From Gemmatimonadota bacterium (GTDB lineage: Bacteria > Gemmatimonadota > Gemmatimonadetes > Longimicrobiales > Gaopeijiaceae): a DNA stretch of 64,000 nt. Where the stretch lies: NCBI GenBank assembly GCA_028873845.1, contig JAPPNO010000073.1, positions 1 through 64,000 of the forward strand. The letters are read 5' to 3'. The translations under genes were made by a program, and so were the position numbers. Position 1 is the first letter of the stretch, and each line of letters opens with the position of its first letter. The notes beneath the pieces were generated by a model. It saw only the letters and a program-made list of their open reading frames with translations, was not told where the DNA came from and made no database searches. Shown here piece after piece: positions 50,774 through 59,594 of the stretch.

Positions 50774-51187
50774 GCCGCTGATCTCGGGCACTATGCGCAC
50801 CGCCCTGTTCCCCCTGTGAGTGTCGTAGCTGCCGGGTGGCCCCGCCGGGTCCCGGGTGCTCGCCTATAGAATAACCCGCGGCGCGGGACAGGGGCATGGT
50901 CTGATGGGACGATCGGTAGAGCGTCCGAGAGTGGATGTACAGCGACCTGGACAGGCCCCTCGCGATCAAGCAGAGTATGGTTCAGCAGTTCCTTACAGGT
51001 TCCAGCACATTCTTGATTCGGCCGATCATCCCCGCTTCCCTCGGACTCGCGGTCCTCGCTTCCGGCAACCTCGCCCTTCGTCGGGAAATGTTCCCGTTTG
51101 GCGATCACGCGTGACCGCCAAAGCACTTTACTGATCGTATTCCCCGCAAAATGATCGACAAACAGTCTTGGCGATCATTCGCGATCG
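50774..51187. other. Region between divergent units: small ORF and palindrome array
   Basis: About 410 bases. It contains a possible 59-residue ORF at 50935-51114 and the first of the three-site palindrome arrays. Nothing else is recognisable. Confidence 0.45.
50935..51114 (+). CDS. Possible small hydrophobic protein (59 aa)
   Basis: An ATG-to-TGA frame that reads like a plausible small protein ('MYSDLDRPLAIKQSMVQQFL', then a hydrophobic 'FLIRPIIPASLGLAVLASG' segment). Its ribosome-binding site is weak and its 3' end overlaps the first palindrome of the array. It may be a chance frame. Confidence 0.2.
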   Translation: MYSDLDRPLAIKQSMVQQFLTGSSTFLIRPIIPASLGLAVLASGNLALRREMFPFGDHA

Positions 51188-51191
51188 TCAT
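51097..51191. repeat. Three-site palindrome array A (at the Fic 3' end)
   Basis: Three inverted repeats of the TTTGNCGATCA / TGATCGNCAAA type. Site 1 is at 51097-51122 (TTTGGCGATCA, 4-base spacer, TGACCGCCAAA; one mismatch between arms). Site 2 is at 51127-51162 with a 14-base spacer. Site 3 is at 51167-51191 with a 4-base spacer and overlaps the stop codon of the Fic gene. Site starts are 30 and 40 bases apart. The same layout recurs at 55467-55562, each site displaced by exactly 4370 bases. Confidence 0.75.
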
Positions 51192-52303
51192 CCGCTCTTC
51201 CTGCCCTCCGCGACGTCGAGCAGACGGCGGAACACGAATAGAGCGGGCCGCCGACCGCGAGCAGGATCGATCTTCTGCAGTACTCCCGACTCGCACAGGC
51301 GTCGAAGGATCCGGCGCGCAGTGGGCGGAGACGAGTCGGTCCCTTCCACGAACTGGACGCTCGCGAAGACCGGACGCGCGAAGATCGAGTCGAGGACGCG
51401 AATCGCGTATCGTGAGTTGGTGATCTCCAGGACACGATCCTTCATCTCTTCGTAGAGCCCGAGAATCGCCTCGGTCTTCACCAGGTTGTCCTCGGCCTGA
51501 GTGCGAACGGCATCAAGGAAGAACTCGCACCATCCACTCCAGTCGTCGTCGCGCGACACGGATCGCAGCCCTTCGTAGTATGCATCCCGGTTGACTTCGA
51601 AGTAGGCGCTGACGTAGAAGGCCGGCTGGCGGATCAGCTCGCGCTGCCACATGAAAAGCGGTACGAGCATGCGGCCCATGCGGCCATTGCCGTCCAGAAA
51701 AGGATGGAGAGCCTCGAACTCGGCATGGAGGATCGCGAGCTGAACCAGCCGGTCGGGCTCGTCCCGGTGCATGTATCGTTCCCATGCGCTCATGGCGTCG
51801 GGCAGGTGCTGTGTGGCGATCGGGACGAAGTTGGCCTCCTCCAGGGAGCAACCAGGTGGCCCGATCCAGTTCTGGATCCGTCGATACGCTCCCGGTGACC
51901 GCCGTCGGCCCCGGCCACTGGCCAGGAGAACGCGGTGCGATTCACGAATCACCCGGAGGGAAAGCGGAAGCTCCCGCAGCATCTGTTCTGCGTGCCACAT
52001 CGCCCTTCGGTACTGGATCACCTCCAGGACATCGTCGCGACGAGTGGGAGACTTCACCACACCGCGGGCTTCGAACTCCAGAACCTGGCCCATCGTGGCC
52101 TGGGTACCTTCGATCCTCGATGAAAGCACCGCTTCCTGGGTGGAAAGGGGTGCGAGCAGGATGCTGGGATCGGGAACCGCCGACAGCATGCCGTCGTACC
52201 TCGCAACGGCGGAATACGCCGGGCCCAACAACGGAACCAGCCTCTGCCAGTCCAGCCGGTCGTCTGGCGGGAATCGTCCTTCATGGTAGTAGACTGGCGC
52301 CAT
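51188..52303 (-). CDS. Fic family protein, class II, flanked by palindrome arrays
   Basis: A 371-residue Fic protein with N-terminal Fic_N region ('LVPLLGPAYSAVARYDG'). The inhibitory motif is 'SSRIEGTQ' and the active site is HPFLDGNGRMGR (His200), so both switch and catalysis look intact. The C-terminus is a winged helix ('TARRILRRLCESGVLQKID') ending 'LLDVAEGRKSG'. GAGGAG upstream supports the ATG at 52303. It is bracketed by arrays at 51097-51191 and 52405-52470. A matching fragment of its last codons is found next to the third array at 55561-55590. Confidence 0.9.
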   Translation of the reverse strand: MAPVYYHEGRFPPDDRLDWQRLVPLLGPAYSAVARYDGMLSAVPDPSILLAPLSTQEAVLSSRIEGTQATMGQVLEFEARGVVKSPTRRDDVLEVIQYRRAMWHAEQMLRELPLSLRVIRESHRVLLASGRGRRRSPGAYRRIQNWIGPPGCSLEEANFVPIATQHLPDAMSAWERYMHRDEPDRLVQLAILHAEFEALHPFLDGNGRMGRMLVPLFMWQRELIRQPAFYVSAYFEVNRDAYYEGLRSVSRDDDWSGWCEFFLDAVRTQAEDNLVKTEAILGLYEEMKDRVLEITNSRYAIRVLDSIFARPVFASVQFVEGTDSSPPTARRILRRLCESGVLQKIDPARGRRPALFVFRRLLDVAEGRKSG

Positions 52304-52404
52304 TGTTCTGCGGCTCCTCACGCGCGCGGGATGGGCCTCACGGTTGCCTTGGTCGCGACCTCACCGGGCCGGAACCTAAGCTGAGTATTGTCGCCTGCCA
52401 AGGG

Positions 52405-52470
52405 TTTGACGATCATCTTGGGGACGAAATGACCGTTAACGGAGCTTGGTGATCATTCGTGAACGTCAAA
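52405..52470. repeat. Palindrome array B (upstream of Fic)
   Basis: TTTGACGATCA with a 14-base spacer to TGACCGTTAAC (52405-52440), then CTTGGTGATCA with a 4-base spacer to TGAACGTCAAA (52445-52470). The 40-base offset between site starts equals that of sites 2 and 3 in the other two arrays. A degenerate trace of the first site precedes it near 52390-52402. Confidence 0.7.
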
Positions 52471-52472
52471 AC

Positions 52473-52512
52473 TGTCAACTACGCATGACATTATGTGAAT
52501 CGCAGTTGACAT
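52473..52512 (-). promoter_or_regulatory. TGTCAA/TGACA operator-like motif upstream of Fic
   Basis: CTGTCAA and TGACAT surround CTACGCA, with a third half site TTGACAT at 52506-52512. It is nearly the same as the motif at 35363-35405, including the shared GTCAACTACGC and GACATTATG words. It lies about 170 bases upstream of the Fic start. Confidence 0.4.
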
Positions 52513-52805
52513 CGGTCACTCGGATGGTTTCGGTATCGCATCCGGCCCCGGGGCGCCTCGGGAGGCGGAAGGTAGCGGGCAAAGCCGAGGACCACCGCCG
52601 CGAGATCGTCGCGCGACCCGTCGTCCCTCGCGTGATATCGCCTGAACACCGCGTAGGCGACGTGGTCGGCGAGTTGGTTGACGCGAGAAGCTCGAGAGTC
52701 CACGAAGAACGGCGTGTCCGCCAAGTGCCTGATCACTCCCCACTGGGTGCCCAGGACGGACTTGAGGAATGTCGAAGTGATCGCGCTTCTTGATGATCGG
52801 GCGAT
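52491..52805 (-). pseudogene. DUF3800 protein C-terminal fragment (frameshifted)
   Basis: Read leftward, 'IIKKRDHFD' in one frame continues as 'TFLKSVLGTQWGVIRHLAD' and 'TPFFVDSRASRVNQLADHVA' with 'YAVFRRY' in another. This is the C-terminal part of a DUF3800 protein. The frame change lies near 52770. The N-terminal part of a DUF3800 gene lies at 55086-55211 on the same strand. Confidence 0.65.
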
Positions 52806-52970
52806 GGCCAGGGTCGCGAGACTTCACCGATCTACCTGAAGCTGCCGAAGCCGTCGAGGCACTGAGCCTTGACGAGCGGATGGACCTGCTGGTGCTCGGC
52901 TGGGGGGACTGGATAGGCCAACCGAAGTCGACCATACTGAATTCAGTCCGAATAACATATGGAGGCCGAC

Positions 52971-53249
52971 ATGCACCGCACTCAGGACACCTATTCGCTG
53001 AGCCATTTCCGGCAACGCACGAGCGAACACCTGGACCGGATTCGAGAGGGGCGGGTGGAGACGATCACCCAGAATGGCCAGGCCGCCATGGTCGTCATGA
53101 GCCCCGAGCGCTACGACTTCCTGGTCCAATCGGCCGAGCGCGGGCACATGTGGCGCGAGGCGATCAGGGCCCATAGGGCTGGAGAGCGCGGAATACCTGC
53201 GAAAGAAGCGATCCGGGACCTGGCTGAGGAGCTGGGCCTTCGTCGATGA
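52971..53249 (+). CDS. Phd/YefM family antitoxin
   Basis: A 92-residue antitoxin. The N-terminal Phd fold ('YSLSHFRQRTSEHLDRIREG', 'ETITQNGQAAMVVMSPERYD') binds operator DNA. The C-terminal helix ('KEAIRDLAEELGLRR') would bind the toxin. GGAGG sits 6 bases before the ATG. Only the last codons of a ParE-type toxin follow, overlapping its stop, so it is an orphan. Confidence 0.82.
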   Translation: MHRTQDTYSLSHFRQRTSEHLDRIREGRVETITQNGQAAMVVMSPERYDFLVQSAERGHMWREAIRAHRAGERGIPAKEAIRDLAEELGLRR

Positions 53250-53328
53250 GTCCGCAAACACCGTGACGATCGTAGACGTGGTCCACTCCGCGCGCGCGCC
53301 CGCAAGGGAACGATATGAGGGGGGTTGA
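53241..53328 (+). pseudogene. C-terminal remnant of a ParE-type toxin
   Basis: In a frame overlapping the end of phd, 'FVDESANTVTIVDVVHSARA' with 'PARERY' reads like the end of a ParE/RelE toxin and stops at 53326-53328. The N-terminal about 60-70 codons are missing, apparently removed by a deletion that joined the phd end to the toxin end. Confidence 0.5.
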
Positions 53329-53536
53329 GGATGCCTGACATGCCCCGCTTCCACCCCGGAGACGCCCTGAAGAGCCTCTTCAGAGACATCTTCGGATGCC
53401 GCGGAAGAGGCTTTGGCAGCCCATCCCATGGCGTCCTGGGCATCTCGGACGGCAACGATGGTGTCCAATGATACGCCGGGTACCGCCCCGGTGACGGTTT
53501 CGTCTGGATTCACCACCCGCAAGGAGAACCATCGCA

Positions 53537-54661
53537 ATGAACAGGACTGCCAGCCGCTGCACGGTGACGCTGCTCGCCGTGGCAACGGCCGCGGCCGCTA
53601 CCGCCATCGGCGCGCCCGCCGCCGACGCCCAGCAGGTGCTCGTGATCGACACCGCGGCCGGGCGGGTCATCATCGACGACGAATGGCGCGCCATCCGCAC
53701 CTTCGGAGACATGGCCCTGGACCGAACGAGGGCCATCCTCTACGCCCGCGACGACGAGGAGCCCGAGGCGGTGATGGCCTTCTCACTCGAGACGGGCGAG
53801 TGGATTCGAACCATTCCGACTCCGACGGGCGACGGCCCGCGAGAGCTCCAGCAGGGGATGGCCGGGATGATGCTCGGCCGCGACGGGAGGCTCTACGTCG
53901 CCGGCTACGTGCGGGTCCTCGAGTTCGACCCTCTCGGCCAGTACGTCAGCAACTGGCGTCCGGGGGTGGAGACGGTACGCGGAGTATGCGAGTTCGACGG
54001 TCAACCGGCCGTCGTGGCCTACAGCGGCGTGATCCGGCGTAGGCCGGATGGCACGGATGAACGCTTCGGTCCCGGGTTTGTGGACCGAGGCAGGACAACC
54101 GTCGAAGAGACCCCGGACGGTCTCGTGACCCGCACATCCCGTTCCCCGCCTCGCATCGCCTGCACGGCCGACGCGGCCTACGTCGTGACGGATTCCGAGG
54201 AGGGTCCCGATTCGGTGTTCGTGCACCATCGCGACGGCAGGCTGGAGAGCTGGGCGGTTCCGGGCGAGCTCGCCGAGGCGTTCGACGACGATTGCAAGCT
54301 TGCGGTCAACCAGTCGGGCGTCTCCTTCGAGTTGCCCTGCAGCGTCTGGCCCCGATATCGAAGACCGTCTCTCGACTGCCGGGGCGACCTCGTACTGCTC
54401 GGCCACGACGTGGAGGTCCCGGGCGCCATCATCGATCCCGAAACCGGCTGCTACGCAGTGGTGCGCAAGCCGGAGAGAACCTTTGCCTACGACGCCCTGA
54501 ACATCTACCGCGACAGCGTTCTCGTGTTCCGGAACGTGGCCTGGGAAAACGACCAGAGCTTCAAGCTGTCCACCGCCGCCAACCGGGTGTCCTTACACCC
54601 GCTGCGCCGGGTCAGCGGGGCGCCGTGTCCGGGTATGCTGCCGGCGGCGGGGGACGGGTAG
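53537..54661 (+). CDS. Exported propeller-like protein, paralogue of the one at 43938
   Basis: A 374-residue protein with a clear signal peptide ('ATAAAATAIGAPAADAQ'). It matches the protein at 43938-45059 through most of its length ('VIIDDEWRAIRTFGDMALDR', 'GRDGRLYVAGYVRVLEFDPL', 'GAIIDPETGCYAVVRKPE', 'SLHPLRRVSGAPCPGML'). The two copies are 9.6 kb apart. The function is unknown. Unlike its neighbours it is intact, and it sits between gene fragments. Confidence 0.8.
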   Translation: MNRTASRCTVTLLAVATAAAATAIGAPAADAQQVLVIDTAAGRVIIDDEWRAIRTFGDMALDRTRAILYARDDEEPEAVMAFSLETGEWIRTIPTPTGDGPRELQQGMAGMMLGRDGRLYVAGYVRVLEFDPLGQYVSNWRPGVETVRGVCEFDGQPAVVAYSGVIRRRPDGTDERFGPGFVDRGRTTVEETPDGLVTRTSRSPPRIACTADAAYVVTDSEEGPDSVFVHHRDGRLESWAVPGELAEAFDDDCKLAVNQSGVSFELPCSVWPRYRRPSLDCRGDLVLLGHDVEVPGAIIDPETGCYAVVRKPERTFAYDALNIYRDSVLVFRNVAWENDQSFKLSTAANRVSLHPLRRVSGAPCPGMLPAAGDG

Positions 54662-54698
54662 TTGTCCTCGGCCGCCGCCCCTTCGGCTGCTGCCCGCT

Positions 54699-54848
54699 TC
54701 ATTCCTCCACGGTCACGGGCGGCCCGTAGTGCTGCAACGCGCCGAACAGCCGGCGGATGGGGCGCACGGGCAGTATGCGCACCTTCCCGTCGAGGACGAT
54801 GTAGCGCACGCGGTCACCGGCTTCCGGACCTTCCGAACGCCGAGGCAT
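54699..54848 (-). pseudogene. AbrB/MazE-type antitoxin C-terminal remnant
   Basis: Reads 'EGPEAGDRVRYIVLDGKVRI', then 'LPVRPIRRLFGALQHYG' and 'PPVTVEE' before the stop. This is the second half of an AbrB-fold antitoxin ('GDRVRY...DGKVRI' strands and a 'LFG.L.H' helix). The N-terminal strands are missing, and the DUF1828 fragment begins at the same place on the other strand. Confidence 0.5.
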
Positions 54849-55085
54849 ACCCGATCGACTATCGAATGGAGGGGAAGAGCGGCGGCCAGGTCTTCCTCTA
54901 CGGCGTTCCGAATCGGGACAAGGCCCGCCTGACCACGATCATCCTGTCTCACTTTCACCGGAATCACCTCGACTTCGATTCGATTCTAGTCTTCAGCGAT
55001 CAGGCCGAAATCCCCGGATGGATCTGGCCAGGTTGTCGGATGTGGGAGGGGATATGGTGTCGTCGCTGGCGTCGCGGGAGGACGC
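54822..55085 (+). pseudogene. DUF1828 protein C-terminal fragment (frameshifted)
   Basis: 'LPDLPNAEAYPIDYRMEG', 'FLYGVPNRDKARLTTIILSH' and 'LDFDSILVFSDQAEIP' are followed, after a frame change near 55015, by 'MDLARLSDVGGDMVSSLASR'. This is the middle and end of a DUF1828-type protein. The final DNA block (about 55046-55083) also occurs at 57261-57297 at the end of the N-terminal piece. Confidence 0.6.
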
Positions 55086-55211
55086 CAGCTCGTCCATGCG
55101 CCGGGTGATCCAGCTTGCCTGCGCCTCGAAAACCGATACTCCCCCGAGGACAAGGTACTCCTCGTTGGGGTTCCCGGCGGAGCCTGAATCATCGAGGTAG
55201 AGGAGGTGCAT
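55086..55211 (-). pseudogene. DUF3800 protein N-terminal fragment
   Basis: Starts 'MHLLYLDDSGSAGNPNEEYL' and continues 'VLGGVSVFEAQASWITRRMD', the typical DUF3800 beginning with the conserved DxSG motif. After about 44 residues it runs into the DUF1828 fragment. A DUF3800 C-terminal piece is 2.3 kb away in the matching orientation. Confidence 0.65.
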
Positions 55212-55416
55212 AGTGGTGCCGGTCCATCGGAATTCGTTGACGGGCGGGACGGCGACCGGCATCCTGCAGACCCAAAAAAGAAATGCAGCCGGGCGAGCCC
55301 AAAGGCTCGACGGACCGCCGAGGCAGCCCTCCCAACTGCACTCTGACAGTAACGATCCGGTTCGCGGGGTCAACCGCGACATCGTGCCGTGTCGGCTCCG
55401 CGCGCGCGGTGAATGA

Positions 55417-55436
55417 AGTCAATTATAGCTGACATA
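55417..55436. promoter_or_regulatory. Weak copy of the TGTCAA/TGACA motif
   Basis: AAGTCAA and TGACAT surround TTATAGC. The arms and spacing are like the motif at 35363 and 52473. It lies about 205 bases upstream of the truncated DUF3800 start and 30 bases before array C. Confidence 0.35.
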
Positions 55437-55466
55437 GCTTCGTCACCGCCGTCGACGCCAGAAAGG

Positions 55467-55562
55467 TTTGTCGATCATCCGTGACCGACAAGCCACCTTG
55501 GCGATCACATCGGGGACGAAATGATCGGCAAGCGGCCTTGATGGTCATCCGTGAGCGTCGGC
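55467..55562. repeat. Three-site palindrome array C
   Basis: Sites at 55467-55492 (TTTGTCGATCA, 4-base spacer, TGACCGACAAG), 55497-55532 (CTTGGCGATCA, 14-base spacer CATCGGGGACGAAA, TGATCGGCAAG) and 55537-55562 (CTTGATGGTCA, 4-base spacer). The layout is identical to array A with a constant offset of 4370 bases. Confidence 0.75.
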
Positions 55563-55590
55563 CGCTCTTCCTGCCCTTCGCGGGATCCAG
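55561..55590 (-). pseudogene. Fic 3'-end remnant beside array C
   Basis: Read leftward, LDPAKGRKSG matches the last residues of the Fic protein at 51188 (LDVAEGRKSG). The shared DNA word GGCAGGAAGAGCGG sits at the same distance from the third palindrome as in the Fic gene. No upstream Fic sequence is visible. Confidence 0.4.
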
Positions 55591-55814
55591 CCAGAGTGTC
55601 GGTCTCTACTCCTCCGGCACAGACCCGATGTTGCCCCGGAGGTCATCGAGCAGGAGGCCGAGTTCGTGATGGCCACTCCGCGATTCTCCGGAGACCGGTC
55701 CCATTGCACCATGTATGCGCCCCGTCGCAAACCCGATACTTCCGACGCCAAGCGGCACAGCGTCCGCGCGACCCCCGGTTGGCATCACGCAAACACCCCT
55801 CGCCGGAGCCCGGA

Positions 55815-56789
55815 TTGGCCCGCAAGCACGACGAGACCTACAAGCTCATCTTCTCCCAGCGCGCAGCCGTCGAGGAGGTGGTCTGCAACTTCGTGGGCGA
55901 GGATCTGGGCGACGAACTCGACTTCGACACGCTTGAGGCCCTTCCCACCGACCGCATCAGCGGCGGCCTGGTTCAGCGCCAGGTGGATCTGCTCTGGAAG
56001 ATCCGCTTCCGGGGGAGCTGGCTCTACCTGCTGATCCTTCTCGAGTTCCAGTCGGAGAGCGACTACTTCATGGCTCTCCGCATTCTGACATACATCTGCC
56101 TGACCTACGAGGAGTTGCTCCGCCGGAGGGAGGTGAAGGCGGGCGAGAGGCTGCCGCCGGTCCTGCCGGTCACGGTCTACAACGGGCGGGCCCGCTGGCG
56201 AGCAGCAACGGACATCTCCGAGCTCATCGCCCCGGTGCCGCCGCCGCTGTCGCGCTATGTGCCGAAAGCGCGGCATCTCCTACTCGACCTGCAGAGGATC
56301 AGCGAGAGGGATCCGGCCTCAATGGACCTGGTGACTTCGCTAGGCAGAGCGGAGGGGGAGCCCTCGCCCGAGAACCTCCGGCGGGTCATGCGTGACTTGG
56401 TCCGCCGGTTTCCGGGGCCGGAGTTCGCCGAGCTCCGCATGGCGTTGTCCACATGGGTAGCGGGTGCCGCGGAAGCATGGCAGATTCCCGAAGAGGAACT
56501 GGCAAGGATGCAGACGACGATGGAGGAAGAGACGATGTGGGAAAGAGTCAGTGAAATGCGGGAGCAGGTTCACCGCGACGGTGTCCAGCAGGGTCTGGAG
56601 CGCGGGCGCGCCGAAGAAAGGCGGTCGCTCGTGGGGCGTCTGGCGACAAGGAAGTTCGGGGCGGAGACGGCGGAGCAACTCTCCCGGGTTCTGGAGGACA
56701 TCGCGGATCCAGAGAGGCTCGCCGAGGTCGCGGATGCGATCATCGACTGTGATACCAACGCCGAGCTGTTTGCGCGGGTGGGGGGGTAG
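55815..56789 (+). CDS. Rpn-family recombination-promoting nuclease (PD-(D/E)XK transposase-like)
   Basis: A 324-residue protein. The N-terminal nuclease region has 'KHDETYKLIFSQRAAVEEVV', 'RQVDLLWKIRFRGSWLYLLI' (Asp of the core) and 'LEFQSESDYFMALRILTYI' (E-x-Q of the PD-(D/E)XK site). The tail ('LATRKFGAETAEQLSRVLED') is shared with the remnant at 34590-35306. Rpn proteins cut DNA and promote RecA-independent recombination. The TTG at 55815 was chosen: GGAG lies 6 bases upstream and it matches the usual 'RKHDETYK' start. Confidence 0.82.
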   Translation: MARKHDETYKLIFSQRAAVEEVVCNFVGEDLGDELDFDTLEALPTDRISGGLVQRQVDLLWKIRFRGSWLYLLILLEFQSESDYFMALRILTYICLTYEELLRRREVKAGERLPPVLPVTVYNGRARWRAATDISELIAPVPPPLSRYVPKARHLLLDLQRISERDPASMDLVTSLGRAEGEPSPENLRRVMRDLVRRFPGPEFAELRMALSTWVAGAAEAWQIPEEELARMQTTMEEETMWERVSEMREQVHRDGVQQGLERGRAEERRSLVGRLATRKFGAETAEQLSRVLEDIADPERLAEVADAIIDCDTNAELFARVGG

Positions 56790-57585: not shown

Positions 57586-57822
57586 TCCGCAACACCGGTG
57601 CGGGTTTCCGGCTGCTGATCCGATTTCCGAGACGGCATCTCGGAATTCAGCCAGTCTCTCGCTTGGACTCGCTCCATGTCCTTCTCGGCCCGCCAAGCGA
57701 ATCTTCCTCGGCCAGCCCCACTGCTTGGCACGGCGCACCGCAGGCGTGCTGACCGGCCCCTGAACGGATCACGCTATATTCCCGTGACCCGTTCACTCAC
57801 CCGGACCGGCGCGACCCCATCC
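57586..57822. other. Short intergenic region before the ATP-binding protein
   Basis: A TATATT-containing AT-rich word at about 57773-57779 in an otherwise GC-rich stretch may be the -10 of the promoter for the gene at 57823. Nothing else is recognised. Confidence 0.3.
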
Positions 57823-59594
57823 ATGACGCCTGACTCCCGCAACGTCCTGTGGAAGCGCTCCTGCCGCGACGAGCACCTGAAGCGGATCTGCGGATTCGCC
57901 AACGCGCAGGGCGGTGTCCTGGAGATCGGCAGGGACGACGCAGGCGAAGTCGTCGGGGTCAGGGGGGTCCTTGGCCTGCTGGAGGAGATCCCGAACAAGG
58001 TGCGGTCGCTGCTCGGGATCGCGGTAGACGTCAACCTGAAGTCGGATTCCGGCCGGGAGTACATCGAGGTCGTCGTCGCACCCCACCGCAATCCGGTCAG
58101 CTACCGGGGCGAGTTCCACTACCGGACCGGAAGCACGAAGCGGGTGCTCGACGGTGCCGCTCTGCGTCGTCTCCTGCGCGCGAGATTCGGACGGAGGTGG
58201 GACGACGTGGCCTTGCCCGGCGTCGGCCTGAACGATCTCGACGGTCGGGCGGTCGACCGGTTCCGCCGGAGGGCCGTCAAGTGCGAGCGGCTTTCCCCCG
58301 AGGTTCTCGACGAATCCGTGGAAGAGATCGTCGAGAATCTGGATCTGCGGCAGGGAGCCCACCTGAAGCGGACGGCCGCCCTGCTCTTCCACCCGTCGCC
58401 CCACCGGCTCGTGCCGGGCGCCTACGTGAAGCTCGGCTGTTTTCGCGGGCCGGACCTGCTGTTTGAGGATGTGGTGCGGGGCGACCTCTTCACGCAGGTC
58501 GACGTCACGATGGACCTGTTGTACACGAAGTACACGCGAGGCCTGATCTCCTACGACGGCATCTACCGCGTCGAGACCTTCCCCGTGCCGCGCTCGGCCA
58601 TGCGGGAAGCGGTGATCAACGCTGTCGTCCACCGCGACTATGCCAATCACGCGCCGATCCGGATCCGGGTGCGCGACGACCGCATCTCGATCTGGAACGC
58701 GGCTCGTCTGACTCCCGGGTGGAGCGCCGAATTGCTGGCCGGGGAGCGCTCTTCGCGGCCGCACAACCCCGGCATCGCCCATGCGTTCCTCCGAGCCGGA
58801 TTGATCGAGGCCTGGGGGCTGGGAATCCGCCGCATGATGGAGACCTGCCGCGAGCTCGGGAACCCGATGCCGAGATGGAGGCCGGAAACGGGCTGCGACG
58901 GTCTGCGGGTGACGTTTCCGTTCTCCGAAGCCTACCGAGCCGCCGATGCCGTTGCTCGGGGGATCGGTGCTTCGCGTACTACCCAAGAAACCGCCAGAAA
59001 CAACCAGAAGGGGGGAACCCTGGCCGGGGCCTCGCCGACCGGATCCTCGCCTTCCTGCGAGAAAACCCCTCGGCCAGCCGTCGCAAGATCGCGGAGGCCC
59101 TTGCGGGCACTACCGAGGGCAGCGTCAGGTATCAGCTGGACAAGCTCAGGGAATCGAACAGGTTGCGTCGCGTGGGACCGGACAGGGGAGGACGCTGGAT
59201 GGTGCTCGATGGTGACGGTGCGGCGGGCGGGAGCGTGAGCAAGGCGCGCTCTGGAAGGCGACGAGACCTGGGCGACGGCGCGCTACACCATAACCGCCAG
59301 AAAACCGCCAGAAACGGCGGCCGACTGCCAGAAAACCACCAGAAACCTACCGGAACTCCCAGAAGACTGCCAGAATCCCTCCCCCTCCCCGACCGCATCC
59401 TCGCCGTCCTCCGCCGGAATCCGTCCACGAGCCGCCGCAAACTCGCCGCCGCACTCGACACAACCCAGTCGACCGTCCGATACCACCTGGACAAGCTGCG
59501 CGCGGCAGGTAGGATCGAGCGGGTCGGTCCCGACAAAGGCGGCCACTGGAAGGTGCTGGATGTCCGGCACACGGAGGCGGGCCCGAGCCGATGA
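57823..59594 (+). CDS. AlbA_2 / HATPase_c_4 / winged-helix transcriptional regulator with an apparent -1 frameshift
   Basis: The first frame (57823 to about 59012) encodes an AlbA_2-type DNA-binding region ('HLKRICGFANAQGGVLEIGR') and a HATPase_c_4-like segment ('AMREAVINAVVHRDYANHAP', 'GLGIRRMMETCREL'). The second, -1 frame continues with two winged helices ('RILAFLRENPSASRRKIAEA', then 'RILAVLRRNPSTSRRKLAAA') to a stop at 59594. That stop overlaps the ATG of the next gene (ATGA). The frames meet at G6 (59010-59015), read as G-GGG-GGA. Total length, 1772, is one base short of a multiple of three, as a -1 slip needs. It could be programmed, a real mutation or an assembly error. Confidence 0.7.

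Follow-up and report, generated by a model that had tools for sequence, protein, structure and literature searches.

Arrays of evenly spaced inverted half-sites beside a SoFic-type fic gene of a Gemmatimonadota bacterium: probable operators of the Fic protein itself

The stretch of DNA analysed here (the window; 64,000 nucleotides of contig JAPPNO010000073.1, Gemmatimonadota assembly GCA_028873845.1) carries a fic gene with an array of inverted half-sites on either side and a third array of the same design with no intact fic beside it (arrays A, B and C, Table 1). Judged from comparative sequence evidence, these arrays are very probably double-stranded operator DNA of the SoFic-type protein that the gene encodes. 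We infer that Fic binds them, that it does so as dimers, that binding represses the gene and that the system is linked to phage defence. What is new is the grammar of the arrays and the breadth of its occurrence; autorepression by a Fic protein is already known, CccR being the precedent. No earlier report of such arrays was found in the searchable literature, a search that left most subscription papers and preprints outside its reach.

Array A lies directly 3' of fic and consists of the palindromes TTTGGCGATCA-N4-TGACCGCCAAA (51097-51122), TTTACTGATCG-N14-TGATCGACAAA (51127-51162) and CTTGGCGATCA-N4-CGATCGTCATC (51167-51192), the last of which runs into the fic stop codon. Connectors of 4 bases likewise join one palindrome to the next, giving six alternating 11-bp half-sites, YTTGNCGATCA. 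Degenerate half-sites number three: the left one of A-2 and the right ones of A-3 and C-3. The initial annotation of this DNA had described two such 4-14-4 arrays with every site displaced by 4370 bases, and sequence and repeat search gave exactly this, each site of array C being an array A site plus 4370. The fic 3'-terminal DNA said to follow the third palindrome in both was likewise recovered, in an alignment of arrays A and C (71% identity over 126 nt) that takes in the last ~30 nt of fic; the stub at array C amounts to only 28-30 nt. Array B, the two-site version reported upstream of the gene, is where it had been placed, some 85-150 bp 5' of the fic start, with the same 40-base offset as in arrays A and C and z = 8.7 in a sequence-free template test. 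With up to 3 mismatches, the motif matches six times in the window (three sites, both strands) against none in 100 shuffles. A pattern search of the whole genome (4.05 Mb) found good matches at this locus only, the remainder carrying 2-3 mismatches and lying near the control level, so the motif does not occur at random background frequency, as the annotation had allowed that it might. Nor did that search find the many copies of a dispersed repeat of the repetitive extragenic palindromic (REP) or miniature inverted-repeat transposable element (MITE) kind.

The gene product contains Fic_N and Fic domains (Pfam, 2e-24 and 4e-17) and matches the PADLOC SoFic profile with E=9.8e-110 (365 bits). By sequence it is a SoFic-type protein outside the NCBI equivalog, because it scores 169.6 bits against the NF046030 cut-off of 550. 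The catalytic motif HPFLDGNGR, an instance of HxFx(D/E)GNGRxxR, is invariant in 63 homologues; the class II inhibitory motif SRIEG fits (S/T)xxxE(G/N), with S67, I70 and E71 invariant in the same 63 sequences. An AlphaFold2 model (predicted local distance difference test score, pLDDT, 93.6) has a C-terminal winged helix whose recognition helix spans about residues 332-344 (PPTARRILRRLCE). The closest fold in the PDB is SoFic of Shewanella (3eqx/3zcn; template-modelling score, TM, 0.8), followed by a Mycobacterium marinum Fic protein, CbFic2 and 7xux.

The arrays travel with the fic lineage. Among the genomes compared, which are mostly draft metagenome-assembled genomes, 17 of the 154 from the order contain the motif, and all 13 Fic homologues with at least 57% identity and both flanks readable have half-site arrays directly upstream, directly downstream or both; the initial annotation had made its proposal depend on such a presence in relatives. 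A fourteenth relative, G031, has a downstream array only (upstream flank covered, 1.07 kb). Mapping of the flanking genes, which the annotation had also proposed, found that neighbours differ from genus to genus and that fic is the sole gene in common. Among all GTDB species nine contigs matched, some of this lineage and the others near chance. The exact palindrome was not found in viral contigs, and the E. coli genomes did not match the Citrobacter gene at the DNA level.

The letters of the half-site vary with the recognition helix of Fic. Within the near clade, helices with TARR go with TTGN-C-G.. half-sites, and those with TALR, TAHR or SALR with TTGT-G-T.. half-sites. In a tree built without the winged helix-turn-helix (wHTH), the TALR/GTGC group is nested inside the TARR/C group and is separate from the TAHR and SALR sequences, a topology that implies two changes or more. 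Over 51 loci, similarity of half-sites correlates with identity of the recognition helices once catalytic-domain identity is allowed for (partial correlation 0.19, permutation p=0.002), and among the most distant pairs the partial correlation is 0.09 (p=0.046). The helix KRQTASVYL is paired with the half-site ATGTCGAT both in a Verrucomicrobiota set, described below, and on an Agrobacterium plasmid. Because the half-site follows the recognition helix and fic is the only linked gene shared, the Fic protein is the likely reader; if so, wHTH domains of the TARR and TALR types would prefer TTGNCGATCA and TTGTGTGCCA, respectively.

Other SoFic lineages keep the spacing and change the letters. Their half-sites are TTTGTCCGCCA/TTTGTCGGCCA (G012, G033, G031:C6, G001 and G004), TTTGTGTGCCA (G141 and G190), TTGTGTAACA (G156) or CTATTAAA-type (G131 and G121), and ATGTCGAT is the half-site repeated at canonical SoFic genes of two rhizobial plasmids. 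A sequence-free template with gaps of 4/4/14-15 gave z=20 in G141, 16 in G156 and 11 in G190, as well as 11 on a Novosphingobium plasmid and 9 on a Thermus plasmid; some nine templates were tried per region, and only z above about 8 was relied on. A histogram of spacers between inverted pairs is blurred by register and was superseded by a register-free triple test, in which a same-strand half-site recurs after 40-41 bp (25-26 + 15) or 30-31 bp (15 + 15), the two copies enclosing an inverted one. By this test 12 of 61 distant Gemmatimonadota upstream regions (30-44% identity) gave a triple at 40-41 bp, where the null value is 0.0, and none of 97 control gene upstreams did so at 40 or 41 bp. Two out-of-sample sets were drawn afterwards with the SoFic profile, the controls being stretches 730-1000 bp upstream. 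In the first, tentatively assigned to the class of a Limisphaerales genome (Verrucomicrobiota), 14/30 upstreams had a triple at 40/41 bp against 0/28 controls; in the second, tentatively the phylum of a genome titled 'Actinomycetes bacterium', the counts were 10/30 and 0/27. Scored for arrays of any inverted word at p<=0.01, the upstream regions of 31 of 88 SoFic genes of the phylum were positive, compared with 3 of 71 control genes; this figure comes from a composition-weighted statistic with controls, k-mer counts with plain shuffles being too noisy in GC-rich flanks. In the distant lineages the arrays lie almost only upstream. One spacing rule, written in differing letters, is found 5' of SoFic genes of several bacterial phyla. 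A very long AT-rich inverted repeat (24-nt arms, N22) 5' of a SoFic-like gene on a Riemerella plasmid (L165, upstream of 2483) is no clean fit to the 40/41-bp rule.

Several observations weigh against self-operators. At the thresholds used, about half of the sampled SoFic upstreams lack an array, as do L072, L074 and L107 of the near clade. In several close relatives (G031, G036, G037, G141 and G156) the only clear array is the downstream one, an unexpected arrangement if Fic simply represses its promoter. A promoter and terminator scan of the locus returned one weak promoter-like site just upstream of array B, no convincing promoter under it and no terminators. Finally, half-site similarity tracks overall relatedness (0.45) more strongly than it tracks the helix, the permutation test for which is only partly phylogeny-aware.

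Arrays outlive the gene, since several of those without fic carry fic remnants, and the vestigial fic end at array C is accordingly best described as a scar. Array C and G014 retain a 3' stub, G017:C301 retains codons 326-377 and G015 the stop region, and in G018 the two arrays are fused; no remnant was identified at the fic-less arrays G017:C65, G023 and G028:C102. Array C has an orthologous array in G014 and a similar one in G026. In genus g2, three genomes have a fic-less array at one syntenic place, between the genes for a DNA methylase and an alcohol dehydrogenase, and four have fic between the array and the alcohol dehydrogenase gene. The array common to both kinds of allele lies on one side only, and the fic-less alleles have the look of deletions that run from the 5' leader almost as far as the next gene. 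The fic-less copies, array C included, are mostly scars of deleted fic genes. G036 (L052:9491-10146) has a ~260-bp tandem duplication, comprising the fic 3' end, the array and 50 bp, downstream of an intact fic.

The initial annotation had offered two readings, operators of a Fic regulator or structured recombination sites at which cassettes are exchanged or lost. The former has held up, with Fic itself as the likely regulator, and the latter has not. As attC-like or tyrosine-recombinase-like sites for gain and loss of a fic cassette, with array C and its stub as a used site, the arrays would explain why fic stands between two of them that share one orientation (the window, G017, G022 and G028), why fic-less arrays carry stubs and why the fic 3' end and array are repeated in G036. 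The arms of 45 distinct palindromes of this clade do not pair and covary as those of attC-like sites do, however: position 5, which played no part in site selection and therefore provides an unbiased test, is complementary between arms in 10 of 45 (8.7 expected if independent), position 8 in 20 (20.3 expected) and position 1 in 10 (14.3 expected). There is thus no selected single-stranded hairpin; each half-site is therefore taken to be read separately as double-stranded DNA, which counts against folded recombination sites and structured RNA alike. The one-sided sharing of arrays in g2, the deletion-like alleles, the unequal endpoints of fic-less copies (codon 326 in G017:C301, the last ~10 codons at array C), the almost exclusively upstream arrays of distant lineages and half-sites that track the Fic wHTH all point the same way, and a Pfam domain scan named no integrase among the families in the neighbourhood. 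Recombination sites are on this evidence a highly unlikely explanation.

Tandem structured units next to a toxin gene also recall the RNA antitoxin of a type III toxin-antitoxin (TA) system, and the N4 loops are often CGGA or CGAA in the fic sense. The covarying RNA structure in tandem repeats that marks such antitoxins was not found in the palindromes; pairing departs recurrently from complementarity (CGCTCA opposite TGATCG), half-sites that alternate with equal connectors leave every neighbour equally 'paired', and other lineages keep the spacing with new sequence, so that templates for structured RNA are extremely improbable. The persistence of arrays in genomes without a clade-I fic (G002, G003, G014, G015 and G026) might instead suggest that another, unlinked regulator controls fic and former fic sites. 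This we consider very unlikely, as the motif is absent elsewhere in the genome, the half-site shifts with the Fic lineage and its recognition helix at constant spacing, that spacing is common to lineages with no common linked second regulator, and CccR provides a precedent for control by the Fic protein itself.

If the arrays are self-operators, each 11-bp half-site would be read by one C-terminal winged helix, and a Fic dimer would lie across an inverted pair with centres 15 bp apart (N4) or 25 bp apart (N14), a full array holding about three Fic dimers side by side. Fic on array B, the presumed operator of the fic promoter, would repress its own promoter and keep the toxic AMP (adenosine monophosphate)-transferase low until needed. 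Array A would be a second binding array of uncertain role, perhaps a block to read-through or antisense transcription, a looping partner or a sink; a downstream array is present mainly in this Fic clade. Array C would be the leftover of an older fic copy. A bolder and rather doubtful extension is that SoFic proteins across bacteria are operator-tethered toxins, with several Fic dimers held on their own gene by a fixed helical grammar: DNA binding would help to keep them inactive or scarce, release on infection would both derepress the gene and free the AMP-transferase, and flanking and leftover arrays would act as sinks that tune the trigger. How SoFic toxins are restrained, and triggered under phage attack, is called open in the accessible parts of the literature. 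If one operator design with a simple spacing rule serves the whole family, many SoFic binding sites can be predicted from sequence, the function of the SoFic wHTH becomes directly testable, and the arrays supply a natural data set tying recognition-helix residues to DNA half-sites.

Table 1. Positions of the fic gene, the arrays and associated features in the window
Feature	Position	Strand	Basis
Array A, six half-sites, gaps 4-4-14-4-4	51097..51192	-	sequence and repeat search
fic, 377 aa, SoFic-type class II Fic protein	51188..52321	-	Fic_N + Fic + C-terminal winged helix
Array B, N14 palindrome (52405-52440) and N4 palindrome (52445-52470)	52405..52470	-	repeat search, template test
Palindrome P, 39 bp, TGTCAACTGCG...CGTAGTTGACA	52473..52511	-	directly upstream of array B
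Array C, 4-14-4, without intact fic	55467..55562	-	palindromes 55467-55492, 55497-55532 and 55537-55562
fic 3' stub, 28-30 nt, abutting array C	55561..55590	-	126-nt A/C alignment; same stub in G014

Palindrome P is near-perfect (TGTCAACTGCGATTCACATAATGTCATGCGTAGTTGACA) and has two more copies in the genome (G000:C18:16143 and C32:165877), and P-like palindromes adjoin arrays in G014, G026, G017:C301 and G030. It was considered as a part of the half-site array and dropped, since it also occurs at two fic-less loci. Between arrays B and C lies a gene for a Phd/YefM-type antitoxin (52959-53249) with no toxin gene recognised beside it. Array C is adjoined by an Rpn/YhgA-like (Transposase_31) nuclease gene (55551-56789), homologues of which recur near arrays in this genus (L042, L044, L046, L048 and L049); such nucleases may favour the deletions behind the fic scars. 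Also near array C is a gene for a protein with Schlafen AlbA_2 and RecG-C-like HATPase regions (57676-59238), possibly a further defence or regulatory gene.

Among known systems, the nearest parallel is CccR of Yersinia pseudotuberculosis, a Fic protein with a C-terminal helix-turn-helix (HTH) that is secreted as a type VI secretion system (T6SS) toxin and represses its own gene through a footprint of AGATAATCAT-N26-ATGATAATCT in its own promoter (PMC9755527). Like CccR, the window protein is a class II Fic protein with a C-terminal HTH, and array B places inverted half-sites in the promoter region of its own gene. CccR has one palindrome with 10-bp arms and N26; the arrays here comprise three or more, spaced by N4 and N14, and occur both upstream and downstream of the gene. 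The centres of the CccR half-sites are 36 bp apart (3.43 turns at 10.5 bp per turn) and those of the arrays 15 bp (1.43 turns) or 25-26 bp (~2.4 turns), which would place both on nearly the same helical phase. SoFic (also Sofic; SO_4266, EcSofic) shares domain order and fold with the window protein and is described as a single-gene anti-phage defence protein in the accessible parts of PMC12249575 and PMC3667792, which describe no operator for it; its DNA binding was called undemonstrated as of 2023 (PMC10628234). CbFic2 of Coxiella burnetii, also a class II Fic protein with a wHTH, binds DNA through that domain and is altered in activity by DNA, although random DNA only was used in the assays (PMC10628234). 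Phd-Doc and other type II TA systems resemble the fic locus as autoregulated toxin loci with inverted repeats, but there the antitoxin binds the DNA, whereas the Fic protein carries both its own wHTH and its own inhibitory helix.

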